Shown here: in pieces, positions 22,664-37,360 of the stretch
How positions within the stretch are numbered: position 1 is the first letter of the stretch
How the letters are laid out: the number at the start of each line of letters is the position of its first letter
From: Paludibacteraceae bacterium
GTDB taxonomy: Bacteria; Bacteroidota; Bacteroidia; Bacteroidales; Paludibacteraceae
NCBI GenBank assembly: GCA_017384225.1
Contig: JAFNUD010000042.1
Coordinates: 1 to 37,360 of the forward strand
Reading direction: 5' to 3'
Length of the DNA: 37,360 bases
Notes under the pieces: model-generated
Told to the model about the DNA's origin: nothing
Databases searched by the model: none
Seen by the model: only the letters and a program-made list of their open reading frames with translations
Position numbers and translations under genes: made by a program

Positions 22664-22684
22664 AATGTCATTGTTTCGCACCGC

Positions 22685-22722
22685 ACAATAACCGCACTAT
22701 AACCGGACAATAACCGCACTAT
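22685..22722. repeat. 11-bp phased repeats upstream of rlmH
   Basis: ATAACCG begins at 22688, 22699 and 22710, a period of exactly 11 bp (one helical turn). The 16-bp unit ACAATAACCGCACTAT occurs twice with a 22-bp period (22685 and 22707). It lies in the 116-bp gap before rlmH, where no consensus promoter is visible. Confidence 0.65.
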
Positions 22723-27807: not shown

Positions 27808-28968
27808 TTATTTAACAGGATTATCTTGCAATCCCCACCCCGTAATCGTAGCTATATAGGGGATATAAGCATACGAGAATTTCTGATGTCCAATATAATT
27901 AGGGTGCATTGCTGCACCTAAGTCCTCATTCGTAGACAAGTGTAAAGCTGGACAGCATGCCATAAAATGCACATTGGGCATAGGACAGAATTTTACCATA
28001 TCTCGCATATAATCAAGCAATGTGCTATGTGCTTTAGATGACACACAGAGCACAGGATGATCCTCGCCATAATAATCTTTGATATAGCGAATCAAGCGAT
28101 AGTATCCATCACGAAATTTTTCGTAAGATGGTTGCAAGGAAACTGAGAAATCATTACCACCCAAATAGATACAAGTCATAGCAGGACGTATATTCGATTC
28201 TGCTGCATTCCAACGTGTTGCTTTTGCAGAATCCATATCAAATGTTTGAAGATAGCGGTCTGGCATATGATAACCATCAAATTTAGAGTTGTAATTGCGT
28301 GCAGCTCCCATACCCGAGTGAGCCACCACCACATAATCAGCACCAAAATAACGCGATATAATGGCAGGAAATGAACGTGATGCATTTTCTGTTTCGGGTG
28401 TAAATTTAGCTAAACGACAAGTATCATCTACACCATAACCACAATCATAACTTGCACCTATAAACTCCAATTGACGTGTTCGAATAGGTTCAGCTTGATA
28501 AAATATGCCTTTCGCATCGGTGGCAAATGAATGGACTGTAATCTTGCCTTGTTCACCTTCTGTACGCTTTTGTACGACAACAGTATGCACTTTTTGTTTG
28601 GAGGTTTTGAGAAAACTAGGATCTATCAGCTCAATAACTGTATCTGTACTTGCAACCTCTATGATACGATGAGGTTCTGCACTCATTGGTGAATCAATCC
28701 AAACATTGAAATAATTATGACGTGTGGCTGCCATCTCTGGCGTATCGTCCCACTTAGTATCTGATACACGCATAGTCAATGATTTGCCCGAAAAAGCAAT
28801 GCGAAAATACACACCTGTCCAATCGAAAGACACATCACTACCCTCTACTAAAGTACGACCTACATAGGTGATACGAGAGTCATTTGCCAAAATTGTTTCA
28901 GCAAGAAGATTTGAAGTAATAGGCGCAAAAACGATCAGGCTTACAGCCAAGAAAAAAATCTTTTTCAT
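27808..28968 (-). CDS. CE2-like SGNH esterase paralogue with altered GDS motif
   Basis: A 386-residue exported protein with the two-domain plan of carbohydrate esterase family 2: an N-terminal jelly-roll and a C-terminal SGNH hydrolase. CE2 enzymes remove O-acetyl groups from plant polysaccharides. Signal peptide: MKKIFFLAVSLIVFAPITSNLLA, start at 28968. The jelly-roll shows VSFDWTGVYFRIAFSGKSLTMRVSDTKWDDT. In the SGNH domain, block I reads IGASYDCGYG, so the usual Asp before Ser173 is Ala. The block III-like Asn is in YLGGNDFS and the His in DLGAAMHPNYIG is kept. Its neighbour upstream keeps GDS and is clearly a paralogue. The change may reduce or redirect activity; catalysis is not excluded because CE2 uses a Ser-His dyad. 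Signal-peptide cysteine absent, so probably periplasmic or secreted. Confidence 0.85.
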   Translation of the reverse strand: MKKIFFLAVSLIVFAPITSNLLAETILANDSRITYVGRTLVEGSDVSFDWTGVYFRIAFSGKSLTMRVSDTKWDDTPEMAATRHNYFNVWIDSPMSAEPHRIIEVASTDTVIELIDPSFLKTSKQKVHTVVVQKRTEGEQGKITVHSFATDAKGIFYQAEPIRTRQLEFIGASYDCGYGVDDTCRLAKFTPETENASRSFPAIISRYFGADYVVVAHSGMGAARNYNSKFDGYHMPDRYLQTFDMDSAKATRWNAAESNIRPAMTCIYLGGNDFSVSLQPSYEKFRDGYYRLIRYIKDYYGEDHPVLCVSSKAHSTLLDYMRDMVKFCPMPNVHFMACCPALHLSTNEDLGAAMHPNYIGHQKFSYAYIPYIATITGWGLQDNPVK

Positions 28969-28984
28969 TTCTCTAAACATTCAA

Positions 28985-30133
28985 CTATTTCACTGGCATA
29001 TCTTGCAATCCCCATCCCGTAATAGTAGCAATATATGGGATAATAGAGTATGCCTTCTTTTGTTGTCCATTGTAGTTAGGGTGTACATCAGCTCCCAGAT
29101 CCTCATCAGTATGCAGGTGTTGTGCTGGGCAATAACCTAAATAATGTACATTTTTCATACCGCAATTATTTACTAAATCACGCACATAATTAAATAGATA
29201 TTCATGTGTTTTGGTACTTACACACAAAATCGGATGATCCTCGCCATAATTCGTTTTGATATAATCAAACAAACGGTAATAGTGCTTGCGAAAATCCTCA
29301 TATTTAGGAGCCAATGAAGTAGAAAAATCGTTTGCACCCAAATAAACAATAGTCATAGCTGGATGAAAATCCGACTTAGTAGCATCCCAACGTGTAAGTT
29401 GTGTAGAATCTTCGTCGAAAGTTTGCAAGTAACGGTCAGGCATCCACCAACCTTTAAACTTGGAGTTGTAATTGCGAGCAATACCCATACCAGAGTGTGC
29501 TATCGCCACATAATCCGCATCAAAATAGCGTGATACAATGCCTGCATACGAACGAGAAGCATTTTCTGTCTCTGGAGTAAAACGATCTTTGCGACTTGGA
29601 GCATCTACTCCATAGCCACAAGTGTAGCTATCGCCAATAAACTCTAATTGGCGTGATTTAAGCGGTTCCGCTGGGAAGAACAAACCTTTACTATCCGTAG
29701 CGAACTCATGTATTGTAGTTTTTCCTTGTTCACCTTCGGTTCGCTTTTGTACGATTACCTCGTGTACTGTACGACGTGATTTCTGCAAATAGGTTGGATC
29801 TATCAACTCTATCACGGTATCATTTCCATTTACTTCTATGATACGATGTGGTTCTGCACTGGTTGGTGAGTCTATCCAAACATTATAATAATTATGACGA
29901 GTAGCTGCCTTATTCACATCTGCATCCCATTTTGTTTCAGATGCTTTCATATGTAATGACTTGCCAGAGAAAGCGATACGAAAATACGTTGCAGTCCAAT
30001 CAAAAGAGACATCCGTACCATCAACCCATGTACGACCTATATACGTTACACGAGCATCATTTGCAGGAATAGTTTCCGAGAATGCATTGATCGTCAGCAG
30101 CATAATAGCTACCATAAGAAGTGTTTTTTTCAT
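28985..30133 (-). CDS. CE2-like acetyl-polysaccharide esterase (SGNH)
   Basis: A 382-residue exported esterase, the upstream member of a tandem pair. Start: Met of MKKTLLMVAIMLLTINAFSE at 30133. The jelly-roll domain (VSFDWTATYFRIAFSGKSLHMKASETKWDADV) is followed by an SGNH hydrolase. Block I is IGDSYTCGYG with the nucleophile Ser, the Asn is in YLGANDFS, and the His is in DLGADVHPNYNG. Both genes share long identical stretches (for example EPHRIIEV, TETENASRS-like PETENASRS, YIATITGWGLQD) and the same C-terminus, so they arose by duplication. Only 16 nt separate this stop from the next start, indicating a single operon. No consensus promoter could be found in the AT-rich region upstream (30134-30223), so regulation may use another sigma factor or regulator. 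Confidence 0.87.
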   Translation of the reverse strand: MKKTLLMVAIMLLTINAFSETIPANDARVTYIGRTWVDGTDVSFDWTATYFRIAFSGKSLHMKASETKWDADVNKAATRHNYYNVWIDSPTSAEPHRIIEVNGNDTVIELIDPTYLQKSRRTVHEVIVQKRTEGEQGKTTIHEFATDSKGLFFPAEPLKSRQLEFIGDSYTCGYGVDAPSRKDRFTPETENASRSYAGIVSRYFDADYVAIAHSGMGIARNYNSKFKGWWMPDRYLQTFDEDSTQLTRWDATKSDFHPAMTIVYLGANDFSTSLAPKYEDFRKHYYRLFDYIKTNYGEDHPILCVSTKTHEYLFNYVRDLVNNCGMKNVHYLGYCPAQHLHTDEDLGADVHPNYNGQQKKAYSIIPYIATITGWGLQDMPVK

Positions 30134-30223
30134 GCTATTATATATTTTAATTATTATTTTCATTAAGTCATACATCACAGTCTATATACTGCTATATATT
30201 CCCTAATCTGATTTATCGGTACA

Positions 30224-33752: not shown

Positions 33753-36700
33753 TTATTGCATGTGTACAACTTTAAGACCTATTGTATTATATATTTCGCC
33801 ATTACGAATAATTAGCACCTGCTCATCTCGAATAACTTTGTAGGTTTCTATCAATGTACTTTGCACAGCGTCTAAAGCAGTTGCTTGGATAATGATAGTT
33901 ATGGGTTCTGATTCTATACTATCGCAATCACTATCAATCACATACTTCAGCACGACTTCAGTTGTACCTGTCATTACAGGTTCTGTAGAGAGTACACTCC
34001 AATTAGTATTATCCTTTACATACCATGCTACAGAAGCATTAGGAGCATACCAAGTCTGAAGTGCAATATGTGCAAGAATATCCTCTGTTGGAATAGTTAC
34101 ATCTATTGGTTCACCAACACGAACCACAGGCAAAGTCACTTGCTCTGGTAATGTCTGTACAAATACATTCAGTATCAGTTCATGTATCACGCTATCACAC
34201 CCAATAGCATATTGCTCAACCATGCTATATTCACCAGCCTCAGCGATAGATAATCCGTTCCATTCGTATGGCAACTCAGAAGGACAAAGTACCAATTCTT
34301 CACGCTCTGTCACAGCATCTGGAAGAATAGTGAGGTGCAATATTGCGATACTATCACAGCCATTAGCAGCAACGATAGTGTAGACATAGTCGCCGCTTTG
34401 AGTGTAAGTCTCGCCATTCCAAGTATAGCCATCACAAGCGGTGATAGTTTCCTCTGTGTACTTGGTTTGGTTGATAGTTAAGTGGAGCGTTACGATGCTA
34501 TCGCAGCCGTTAGTGGCAACGGTGGTGTAAATATAGTTACCACTTTGGGTGTAAGTCTCGCCATTCCAAGTATAGCCATCACAAGCGGTGATAGTTTCTT
34601 CTGTATAAACGGTTGGATTAACTGTCAAATTGAGGATATGTTGTACACTATCTATATCAGTACCTACATATTTCTCTGTATAGGTGTATTTACCTGTTGC
34701 AGTGTAAGACTCACCATACCACATATAAGGTACTTCACTATCGCAGATAGTTGCTGACTGTTCGTCGAGAGCGCCTGTTGTCAGTACAATTAGATCCAAC
34801 ACATGGATAGCACTATCGCAAGCAACGTTTGTATATTGTTCAATGTCGGTGTAACGATCTGTAGCGGTAATGGATTGTCCACGCCAACTATATGGCAACT
34901 CATCGCTACCTATCACAACGGTTTCGGTAGTAGTGACAGCCGCAGGCATGATAGTGAGGTGCAATGTTGCTACGCTATCGCAGCCAAGAGCATTTTGCAA
35001 GGTTACATTGTACTCGCCTTCAGTCGAGTAGGTTTGACCGTTCCATGTGTAGGTTTCGCCGTGACAAATGGTTGCGTACTCAGGTGTAGCCACTTCACTA
35101 TAGTTGATAGTCAAGTGCAATGTTAAAATGCTATCACAACCATTGGCAGCAGCAGTGGTGTAAACATAGTCACCGCTTTCGGTGTAGATCTCGCCATTCC
35201 AAGTGTAGCTGTCGCATGCGGTGATGATTTCCTCTGTGTGCTTAGTTGGGTTGATAGTCAAGTGTAATGTGACGATGCTATCACAACCATTAGCTGCAAC
35301 GGTGGTGTAAATATAGTCGCCGCTTGTAGTGTAGGTCTCGCCGTTCCAAGTGTAGCTATCGCATGCGGTGATAGTTTCTTCTGTATAAACGGTTGGATTA
35401 ACTGTCAAATTGAGGATATGTTGTACACTATCTATATCTGTACCTACATATTTCTCAGCGTAAGTATATTTGCCTGTTGTGCTGTAAGATTCACCATACC
35501 ATATATATGGTGTTTCTGTCTCACAGATAGTAACTGATTGCTCATCGTAGTTGCCCGTTGTGAGTACCGTCAAGTCCAACACATGGATAGCGCTATCGCA
35601 AGCAATAGTAGCGTATTGCTCTATGTCTGTATAGCGACCAGTTACAGAGTAAGTATTGCCACGCCATACATATGGCAACTCATCGCTACCAATTACGACA
35701 GTCTCAGTGGTGGTAATAGCCGCTGGCATAATCGTGAGGTGCAAGATTGCTACGCTATCGCAGCCAAGAGCATTTTGCAAGGTTACACTATACTCGCCTT
35801 CAGTCGAATAAGTTTGACCGTTCCATGTATAGGTCTCGCCATGGCAAATAGTTGCGTACTCGGTTGCAGCAACTTCACTATGGTTGATAGTGAGGTGCAA
35901 AGTCACGATGCTATCGCAGCCATTAGAAGCAGTAGTGGTGTAAACATAGTCACCGCTCTCGGTGTAGGTTTCGCCATTCCATGCGTAACTGTCGCAAGCG
36001 GTGACACTCTTCTCAGCATATTGCGTTTGGTTAATAGTTAGGTGGAGAGTTACGATGCTATCGCAACCGTTAGAAGCGGTAGTGGTGTAAACATAGTCGC
36101 CACTCTCTGTATAGCTCTCGCCATTCCAAGTGTAGCTGTCACATGCTGTGATATGCTCCTCAGTGTAAACTGTTGGATTAACTGTGAGATTGAGGATGTA
36201 TTGGATACTATCAATATCAGTACCTGCGTACTTTTCTGTGTAGGTGTATTTGCCTGTAGCAGAATACGATTCGCCATACCAGAGATAAGGTGCTTCCGTC
36301 TCGCAGATTGTTACTGATTGCTCATCGTAATTATCTGTATTTAGTACTGTCAAATCTAACACATGGATAGCGCTATCGCAAGCAATAGTAGCGTATTGCT
36401 CCACATCTGTATAGCGACCTGTTGCAGTATAGGTATTACCACGCCATGCATATGGCAACTCATCGCTACCAATTACAACAGTCTCTGTGGTGGTAATAGC
36501 CGCTGGCATGATAGTGAGGTGCAAAGATGCTACACTATCGCAGCCAAGAGCATTTTGCAAGGTTACACTATACTCGCCTTCAGTCGAGTAAGTTTGACCG
36601 TTCCATGTATAGGTCTCGCCATGGCAAATAGTTGCGTACTCAGGGGCAGATACTTCACTATGGTTGATTGTTAAGTGCAAAGTCACGATGCTATCGCAAC

Positions 36701-37360
36701 CATTAGAAGCAGTGGTGGTATAGGTGTAATCACCACTCTCGGTATAAGTTTCACTATTCCAAGTGTAACTATCGCAGGCGGTAATGCTCTCCTCTGCGTA
36801 CTTAGTTTGATTGATAGTCAGGTGGAGAGTTACAATGCTATCACAACCAAGAGCGTTTTGCAAGGTTACACTATACTCGCCTTCAGCCGAGTAGGTTTGA
36901 CCGTTCCATGTATAGGTCTCTCCATGGCAAATGGTTGCGTACTCAGGTGCTGCTACTTCACTATGGTTGATTGTTAAGTGCAAAGTCACGATGCTATCGC
37001 AGCCATTAGAAGCAGTAGTGGTGTAAACATAGTCACCGCTTTCGGTGTAGATCTCGCCATTCCATGCGTAACTGTCGCAAGCGGTGACACTCTTCTCAGC
37101 ATATTGAGTTTGGTTAATAGTGAGGTGCAAAGTTACGATGCTATCACAACCATTAGCAGCAACGGTGGTGTAAACATAGTCGCCGCTTGTAGTGTAGGTT
37201 TCGCCATTCCATGCGTAACTATCACAAGCGGTGACACTCTCCTCAGCATATTGAGTTTGGTTAATAGTGAGGTGCAAAGTTACGATGCTATCACAACCAT
37301 TAGCTGCAACGGTGGTGTAAACATAGTCGCCGCTTGTAGTGTAGGTTTCAGCATTCCATG
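33753..37360 (-). CDS. Giant modular Cys-patterned repeat protein, probably surface or secreted (5' end beyond window)
   Basis: At least 1202 residues are visible and the reading frame is open to the right edge, so the N-terminus is missing. The visible part is an array of about 49-55-residue beta-type modules of five kinds (A-E) with the recurring pattern CDSYTWNGETYTxSGDY ... GCDSIVTLHLTI. Modules are arranged A-A-B-C-D in a 260-residue super-unit. After the last A modules there is a module E (34176-34337) and a 140-residue C-terminal region (33756-34175) ending IIRNGEIYNTIGLKVVHMQ, which resembles the type IX secretion sorting tail of Bacteroidetes. Probably a long adhesin or surface fibre. 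No enzymatic motif is visible. Two-cysteine modules could form internal disulfides. The family has no function I can name. Confidence 0.85.
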   Translation of the reverse strand, partial: WNAETYTTSGDYVYTTVAANGCDSIVTLHLTINQTQYAEESVTACDSYAWNGETYTTSGDYVYTTVAANGCDSIVTLHLTINQTQYAEKSVTACDSYAWNGEIYTESGDYVYTTTASNGCDSIVTLHLTINHSEVAAPEYATICHGETYTWNGQTYSAEGEYSVTLQNALGCDSIVTLHLTINQTKYAEESITACDSYTWNSETYTESGDYTYTTTASNGCDSIVTLHLTINHSEVSAPEYATICHGETYTWNGQTYSTEGEYSVTLQNALGCDSVASLHLTIMPAAITTTETVVIGSDELPYAWRGNTYTATGRYTDVEQYATIACDSAIHVLDLTVLNTDNYDEQSVTICETEAPYLWYGESYSATGKYTYTEKYAGTDIDSIQYILNLTVNPTVYTEEHITACDSYTWNGESYTESGDYVYTTTASNGCDSIVTLHLTINQTQYAEKSVTACDSYAWNGETYTESGDYVYTTTASNGCDSIVTLHLTINHSEVAATEYATICHGETYTWNGQTYSTEGEYSVTLQNALGCDSVAILHLTIMPAAITTTETVVIGSDELPYVWRGNTYSVTGRYTDIEQYATIACDSAIHVLDLTVLTTGNYDEQSVTICETETPYIWYGESYSTTGKYTYAEKYVGTDIDSVQHILNLTVNPTVYTEETITACDSYTWNGETYTTSGDYIYTTVAANGCDSIVTLHLTINPTKHTEEIITACDSYTWNGEIYTESGDYVYTTAAANGCDSILTLHLTINYSEVATPEYATICHGETYTWNGQTYSTEGEYNVTLQNALGCDSVATLHLTIMPAAVTTTETVVIGSDELPYSWRGQSITATDRYTDIEQYTNVACDSAIHVLDLIVLTTGALDEQSATICDSEVPYMWYGESYTATGKYTYTEKYVGTDIDSVQHILNLTVNPTVYTEETITACDGYTWNGETYTQSGNYIYTTVATNGCDSIVTLHLTINQTKYTEETITACDGYTWNGETYTQSGDYVYTIVAANGCDSIAILHLTILPDAVTEREELVLCPSELPYEWNGLSIAEAGEYSMVEQYAIGCDSVIHELILNVFVQTLPEQVTLPVVRVGEPIDVTIPTEDILAHIALQTWYAPNASVAWYVKDNTNWSVLSTEPVMTGTTEVVLKYVIDSDCDSIESEPITIIIQATALDAVQSTLIETYKVIRDEQVLIIRNGEIYNTIGLKVVHMQ
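34632..35411 (-). repeat. 780-bp super-repeat, copy 1 (A-A-B-C-D)
   Basis: Contains A 35265-35411, A 35118-35264, B 34962-35117, C 34797-34961 and D 34632-34796, again 260 codons. It is the copy nearest the C-terminus and shows the most drift in its C and D modules (for example WRGQSITATDRYT and ICDSEVPYMWYG). Confidence 0.9.
35412..36191 (-). repeat. 780-bp super-repeat, copy 2 (A-A-B-C-D)
   Basis: Contains A 36045-36191, A 35898-36044, B 35742-35897, C 35577-35741 and D 35412-35576. Total 260 codons. The phase is confirmed by the same landmark ACATGGATAGCGCTATCGCA starting at 35581, 780 bp after its near copy at 34801 and 780 bp before 36361. Confidence 0.9.
36192..36824 (-). repeat. Partial super-repeat, copy 3 (A-B-C-D)
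   Basis: Contains A 36678-36824, B 36522-36677, C 36357-36521 and D 36192-36356. The first A expected in the pattern is replaced by a B module (36825-36980). This is where the regular super-unit breaks down toward the N-terminus. Confidence 0.82.

Follow-up and report, generated by a model that had tools for sequence, protein, structure and literature searches.

A 260-residue super-repeat in a Paludibacteraceae array protein, and a cysteine rule that may divide such arrays into stapled segments

When a protein array repeats in blocks of five modules, does the block correspond to anything in the protein itself? The question is raised by the stretch of DNA analysed here (the window), which is the entire contig JAFNUD010000042.1 (37,360 bp; contig C59) from a Paludibacteraceae bacterium genome of 140 contigs (GCA_017384225.1), and whose right-hand end carries, on the minus strand, an open frame for a protein with modules of about 50 residues and a higher-order period of 260 residues. 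We consider it fairly probable that this array is a secreted surface stalk, cross-linked from the first cysteine of one module, Cys1(n), to the second cysteine of the next, Cys2(n+1), probably by disulfides, and organized into D-A-A-B-C segments with possible hinges; our confidence is slightly lowered by the fact that the period matches the spacing of the unlinked junctions in only four of 12 arrays.

The period is exact. Landmark sites start at 34801, 35581 and 36361, precisely 780 bp apart, and among all offsets from 30 to 2199 the strongest in the coding strand of the frame is 780 (62% identity), with 1560 as runner-up at 53%; in the protein, the strongest offset is 260 residues (58%). Five module lengths, 49+49+52+55+55 residues, sum to this figure, and from N- to C-terminus the modules follow the order A(partial)-A-A-B-A-B-C-D-A-A-B-C-D-A-A-B-C-D-A-A-X. 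A permutation test on module order gives lag 5 as the best, at 74% identity where the median across lags is 51%; its p of 0.005 is the lowest that 200 permutations can yield. An earlier note on this DNA had described an exact 780-bp period, modules adding up to 260 codons and an A-A-B-C-D order with two complete occurrences and a third short of one A, and had named a dominant 780-bp diagonal as the check; all of this is borne out. It had also named a collapsed or misordered assembly as a danger. The two full D-A-A-B-C blocks have diverged at a synonymous divergence (dS) of 1.47 with a nonsynonymous to synonymous ratio (dN/dS) of 0.07, partial blocks give dS values of 0.87 and 1.56 (D-A-A) and 0.55 (A-B-C) with dN/dS from 0.08 to 0.11 throughout, and exact repeats within the module region run to 74 bp at most. 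The full-block values and the short exact repeat point to old duplications that have been under purifying selection rather than to a collapsed assembly; a recent or collapsed copy is unlikely, and the super-repeat is real. The limit that the note gave to the array, a start at 34338, did not hold: the array reaches approximately 34164, where module X ends, and the gene reaches 33753. Likewise, its term ‘giant’ suits the family, with frames of up to 5273 residues among the matches listed; the window frame itself has 1201 residues, is incomplete and lacks its N-terminus because the window is the whole contig and the frame runs off its end.

The block acquires a natural frame once the cysteines are considered. 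A profile search of the fetched loci recovered 1450 modules, with Cys1 at column 13 in 85% and Cys2 at column 41 in 91%; below, o denotes a module with both cysteines, c one without Cys1 and d one without Cys2. In all three C-D pairs of the window, Cys1 is absent from C and Cys2 from the following D. A cysteine was scored as present if it lay between 3 columns before and 2 columns after its model column; the counts exclude pairs separated by over 10 residues, modules truncated at a cysteine column, the loci L001-L008, L011-L031 and L127-L154, which are short or overlapping pieces, and L175-L176, which were fetched later. Two duplicate arrays were removed from the main pair, module-end and by-data-set counts, and are still included in the redundancy-reduced count, the shuffle test and the count for other orders. 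Written as both present / only Cys2(n+1) lost / only Cys1(n) lost / both lost, the 1134 adjacent pairs from 134 arrays (1442 modules) give 1059/2/13/60, with 4 double losses expected (p=3.4e-84). The relatedness of the sequences inflates p-values, and cluster and identity-limited counts are given beside them; redundancy reduction leaves 20 double losses and 6 discordant pairs among 364 scored pairs.

The association is specific to one direction and one distance. Loss of both cysteines from the same module is depleted (1 vs 5.9 expected), joint loss of Cys2(n) and Cys1(n+1) shows no significant link (16 vs 10.6 expected, p=0.09), and among offsets from -3 to +3, +1 alone lies above every one of 500 within-array shuffles, with 68 joint losses (shuffle mean 19, maximum 28). 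Since the rule was first noticed in the window and in L032-L071, a test can rest on later loci alone. The loci where it was noticed give 631/0/6/11, and the window with contigs C10 and C63 of the same genome gives 23/0/0/3; loci of the same order fetched after the rule was formed give 316/2/3/46 over 367 pairs, with double loss in 17 loci, and those later pairs that stay below 50% identity to all earlier pairs give 194/2/1/44. All 15 discordant pairs were read by eye, and in L168 (three pairs), L048, L060, L089 and L094 the cysteine is displaced by some residues or lies in the linker; these are still counted as discordant. In L094 (G019:C51), Cys1 seemingly sits several residues upstream of its usual place and could form a shifted staple, as we call the predicted cross-link. 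The coupling of cysteines across junctions is firm.

Covariation beyond presence and absence points to the same pair. In a mean-field analysis, C13(n)-C41(n+1) ranks first both over 985 module triples (18.2 standard deviations) and over 1173 pairs (16.9, with 20 re-paired controls between -1.2 and 1.0); in the latter set the next inter-module couplings are W20-W20 (3.8), expected since neighbouring modules are similar, and D14-S3 (3.4). Within modules, the couplings 12-51, 9-48 and 6-45 pair residues 6-12 in parallel with 45-51, while 30-48, 34-44 and 35-43 pair residues 30-35 antiparallel with 43-48; 21-33, 20-25 and 10-18 are also coupled. This pattern suggests a small beta meander closed by parallel first and last strands, and the two strand pairings would put Cys13 and the chain exit at one pole, and the chain entry and Cys41 at the opposite pole, so that a staple would span the interface of neighbouring modules.

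Array ends carry the same polarity. Single-cysteine modules in first position are Cys1-only in 11 cases and the reverse in 1, and those in last position are Cys2-only in 42 cases and the reverse in 2 (p=6e-9). Furthermore, all 58 last modules that keep Cys1 have another cysteine at most 120 residues downstream, which is what a Cys1(n)-to-Cys2(n+1) bond requires; among last modules without Cys1, 26 of 52 do. A complete-looking protein on contig C101 of the window genome reads d-o-o-o-o-o-o-c, and in L124 the whole repeat region is a single d-o-o-o-c run, like the window unit. Two further arrays, L036 and L067, read d-o-o-o-o-o-c and follow a peptidase C10 domain and an IgGFc-binding domain, respectively.

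Because C lacks Cys1 and D lacks Cys2, the natural unit of the window protein is D-A-A-B-C rather than A-A-B-C-D, with one unstapled junction per 260 residues, and the five-module block is probably a stapled segment. The map below uses this frame, its staple pairings deduced from cysteine co-loss and coupling:

33753-37358, minus strand: open frame of the array protein, 1201 residues, 5' end off the contig.
36345-37358, minus strand: first segment, incomplete, A(partial)-A-A-B-A-B-C, residues 1-338, cysteine pattern ?-o-o-o-o-o-c.
36344-36345, minus strand: unstapled C/D junction no. 1, proposed hinge, C without Cys1 and D without Cys2.
35565-36344, minus strand: segment D-A-A-B-C, 260 residues (339-598), predicted staples 352-432, 406-481, 455-533 and 505-587.
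35564-35565, minus strand: unstapled C/D junction no. 2, proposed hinge, C without Cys1 and D without Cys2.
34785-35564, minus strand: segment D-A-A-B-C, 260 residues (599-858), predicted staples 612-692, 666-741, 715-793 and 765-847.
34784-34785, minus strand: unstapled C/D junction no. 3, proposed hinge, C without Cys1 and D without Cys2.
33885-34784, minus strand: last segment D-A-A-X-T, residues 859-1158, predicted staples 872-952, 926-1001, 975-1054 and 1025-1145.
34164-34325, minus strand: module X, the last that the profile recognises, both cysteines present.
33756-33884, minus strand: C-terminal tail, 43 residues, resembling only part of a type IX secretion system (T9SS) sorting tail.

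The last segment again has five units and ends in a divergent domain, T, with one Cys2-like cysteine; the module profile does not detect T, and its CDS-type ending, judged by eye, suggests a relative of the modules. Under these predicted pairings, all 36 cysteines of the window protein are used, provided that the first two Cys2 have partners upstream of the contig end.

From the computed periodicity, paired cysteine loss, coupling and end polarity, we infer the following arrangement. Each module would be a small all-beta domain of a secreted surface stalk, with Cys1 directly after the first strand, at the exit pole, and Cys2 in the turn preceding the last strand, at the entry pole. Cys1 of module n would be covalently linked to Cys2 of module n+1, most likely as a disulfide, and an ordinary junction would thus be held by both the peptide linker and the staple, making a stiffer rod and limiting how far a module can be pulled out. 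D-type modules would start a stapled run and C-type modules close it; where C meets D there would be no staple and the rod could bend, giving the window protein a hinge every 260 residues. Linkers are longer at unstapled junctions (median 25 vs 22 residues at 60 and 1046 junctions, respectively), and a hinge at these places is plausible.

A role as a stalk is suggested by what precedes such arrays. Of 53 listed proteins in which 150 or more residues precede the array, 17 had this N-terminal region scanned, and 13 of the 17 contain a known family there; these families include peptidase C10, IgGFc-binding, CUB, cleaved adhesin, BspA LRR and PKD, making it likely that the array holds an N-terminal head away from the cell surface. 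The window protein's own head may lie at the end of contig C10, where a frame with a hydrophobic N-terminus and an N-terminal domain without a Pfam match runs into four similar modules, d-o-o-o, and off the contig. These modules are the closest DNA to the window block elsewhere in the genome, and the frame is probably the N-terminal part of the window protein, although no exact end overlap joining C10 and C59 was found. Two genes before it, L009 (positions 4-6318 of C10) encodes a 2104-residue protein that combines four modules, o-o-o-c, with CBM26, X25 and Fn3-associated matches.

Export would proceed through the T9SS. The window genome has one PorP-family match (TIGR03519, E 5.6e-57), the sole T9SS machinery gene assessed, and 17 matches to the TIGR04183 sorting tail, 14 of them over the cut-off; three array proteins are among the matches, that on C63 over the cut-off and those on C101 and C10 below it. 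Endings similar to the window tail occur in array proteins L037, L043, L073, L074, L076 and L110. In the excerpted text of a study on short T9SS C-terminal signals of Prevotella intermedia (PMC11969387), motif B can be likened to the Y-N-T-I-G of the window tail (Tyr and Gly; a likeness of residues, not of motif spacing), whereas the window tail ends a few residues after this stretch, without the G-x-Y of motif D and without a TIGR04183 match.

Long tandem arrays in exported proteins are familiar from other systems. SprB repeats (PF13573) and other T9SS-exported adhesin repeats of Bacteroidota likewise form them in surface proteins (for the role of SprB, see the passages available from PMC12635249); the window module matches no SprB model, and L096 has a weak SprB match N-terminal to its array that stays under the Pfam cut-off, no stretch of it passing. 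Periscope/SHIRT proteins, SasG, MpAFP RII and SiiE, as described in portions of PMC8201768, PMC9704523, PMC4458895, PMC4083281 and PMC5466336, similarly use tandem domains to project a functional part, with repeat number setting length. According to the same portions, MpAFP and SiiE use calcium and SasG does without covalent cross-links, whereas the window family has a coevolving cysteine pair at ordinary junctions that special modules omit.

Several observations weigh against this picture of an exported stalk with stapled segments. Double loss is seen only within the order Bacteroidales: of the pairs in 20 regions from other orders, 89 are intact, 4 have lost one cysteine and none has lost both (89/0/4/0). 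Clustered at 50%, 40% and 35% identity, the 60 double losses reduce to 42, 13 and 3 clusters, respectively, leaving the number of independent origins uncertain. End caps are common but not the rule: first modules keep both cysteines in 57 of 69 cases and last modules in 45 of 89, and of the 53 contiguous arrays with flanks on both sides just seven, L124 among them, are balanced when taken alone. Neither the window protein nor any other part of contig C59 matches TIGR04183, and the protein has no recognised T9SS tail. Moreover, models for DsbA, DsbB, VKOR and Thioredoxin_4 (PF01323, PF02600, PF07884 and PF13462) match in none of 41 genomes at E 0.001, and among the 12 arrays with at least two unstapled junctions the period equals the junction spacing in three and doubles it in one.

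The lack of a known disulfide catalyst means that the link could be another cysteine-cysteine chemistry, for instance a metal site or other thiol-derived cross-link, which would suit an anaerobe without DsbA or VKOR. The same four models do match in 8, 6, 3 and 9 of 14 control genomes, the Bacteroides control not being among those that match, and an oxidant family overlooked by them is possible. Aspartates often follow the cysteines (D14 in 455 and D42 in 941 of 1107 two-cysteine modules), as a metal site might have it; unlike what a four-ligand site would predict, the aspartate is largely kept when the adjacent cysteine is lost (D42 in 78 of 100 Cys2-less modules, D14 in 51 of 175 Cys1-less modules), with which a two-cysteine site is still compatible. 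Disulfides outside the cytoplasm have been demonstrated in Flavobacterium johnsoniae, and export in Porphyromonas gingivalis grown under anaerobic conditions requires the PorG cysteine; the GldK-SprF and GldK-PorG links of the T9SS/gliding track are likewise extracytoplasmic bonds in Bacteroidota, there between separate proteins and here between modules of one chain (all from the excerpted text of PMC12635249). On balance a metal site or other link is unlikely and a disulfide likely; the bond may be made by an oxidant not yet recognised, or else the link has another chemistry. Cysteine partners might instead lie within each module, Cys1 bonding to Cys2 internally and cross-junction pairing being confined to C-D pairs, and this predicts the joint loss in C-D pairs equally well. 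Modules lacking both cysteines should then be common, but the 1376 modules scored comprise 1102 with both, 272 with one and just 2 with neither. Internal bonds predict neither the Cys1-only first and Cys2-only last modules nor the downstream cysteine after every last module that keeps Cys1, and according to the couplings Cys1 and Cys2 of a module sit at either end of a strand, all of which makes this arrangement very unlikely.

A different doubt concerns the block rather than the bond: the super-repeat may merely mark block duplication by recombination, with C and D falling where they do incidentally and the block having no structural meaning, since an exact period would follow from block copying alone. 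A significant period (p<0.05) occurs in 22 of 49 arrays with at least nine modules (lag 1 in ten, lags 3 and 4 in four each, and lags 2, 5 (the window), 6 and 12 once each), and multi-module periods also occur in arrays with no unstapled junction, of 3 in L043 and of 4 in L035 and L044. L043, whose C-terminal region is 53% identical to that of the window protein, thus shows by its period without an unstapled junction that periodicity alone does not mark a structural unit. Successive unstapled junctions lie five modules apart in the window (twice), mostly three apart in L082, three in L105, and nine, four and four in L078; the usual spacing is also the period in the window (5), L082 (3) and L078 (4) and is half the period in L105, but the period does not follow it in the other eight arrays (L047, L101, L089, L107, L095, L053, L106 and L055), several of which have no significant period. 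Set against mere duplication are the age of the blocks and the purifying selection on them, the unstapled C/D junction in all three copies, the agreement of period and spacing where it occurs, and L124, whose repeat region is one such run; we regard duplication without structural meaning as somewhat unlikely. The earlier note had offered the five-module block as the structural or ligand-binding unit. Its structural half gains support, by way of the bounding junction where both cysteines of the pair are missing and in the frame D-A-A-B-C; a repeated binding site would also recur under purifying selection, but nothing was found in its support, the modules have no recognised binding domain and the recognised functional domains of relatives lie N-terminal to the arrays, so that this half appears quite unlikely. 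We therefore retain the cross-linked stalk with D-A-A-B-C segments as the preferred account.

The modules themselves matched no curated family or solved structure by sequence in Pfam, NCBIfam or PDB. Scanned whole against Pfam and NCBIfam, the window protein returned only families with no stretch passing alone, and no Ig-like, PKD or SprB repeat; 15 single modules returned eight families, each matched by one member (best E 0.0096). The names ATE_N, DUF357 and ErpA_rel were rejected as unrelated, no stretch passing alone in the whole-protein scans and the scores looking like chance summed over repeats, and two PDB sequence matches (E 0.45 and E 3.3) were likewise rejected. The peptide CDSYTWNG is not mentioned in the open-licence PMC literature searched, and open-licence PMC titles and abstract openings yielded nothing on the module or on inter-module disulfides in such arrays, which is not proof of their being unpublished.

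A profile built on 15 modules gives 62 matches in the window genome, on contigs C59, C10, C63, C101, C68, C116, C113, C27 and C86. The module is present in 32 of 41 genomes searched (the window's own, all 24 others of its genus and 7 of 16 others of the order) and in 22 of 395 genomes drawn across the phylum, the window's own included, with at most 17 candidates scored per genome in that survey. Most of the forty named loci stem from metagenome genomes of rumen and gut Bacteroidales; some bear the label Paludibacteraceae and one Flavobacterium. Among viral contigs there were two pattern matches, neither confirmed. Separately, a 635-kb uncultured phage genome (L175; LR745206.1, 573429-587564) has a 1207-residue frame with nine distant module relatives, all with both cysteines, and plasmid pAT4 of Aureibacter tunicatorum (L176) illustrates module relatives on plasmids of a Cytophagales bacterium, in a protein annotated ‘Ig-like domain-containing’. 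Elsewhere in the window, two adjacent genes of the carbohydrate esterase family 2 type (27808-30178; CE2_N plus GDSL, the GDSL of the second being below the cut-off) fit a plant-fibre degrader, and a short tandem repeat with an 11-bp unit, ACCGCACAATA, occupies 22680-22722.

More broadly, and as a tentative proposal to which we give slightly less than an even chance, a phylum-wide beta-module family without a database entry would follow the grammar (d-o*-c)+ in Bacteroidales, such that the gene encodes stiff and bending stretches of a stalk, and anaerobes without DsbA, DsbB or VKOR would link its cysteines by an unrecognised oxidation route. Genomes of rumen and gut Bacteroidales commonly carry this type of repeat, for which the libraries searched offer no family model. 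The rule proposed for it is testable and predicts from sequence alone which cysteines are linked and where a stalk should be stiff or flexible. It also raises the question of how bonds form in anaerobes without known thiol oxidases and, if true, would offer a blueprint, drawn from nature, for stapled rods of protein whose hinges can be programmed.

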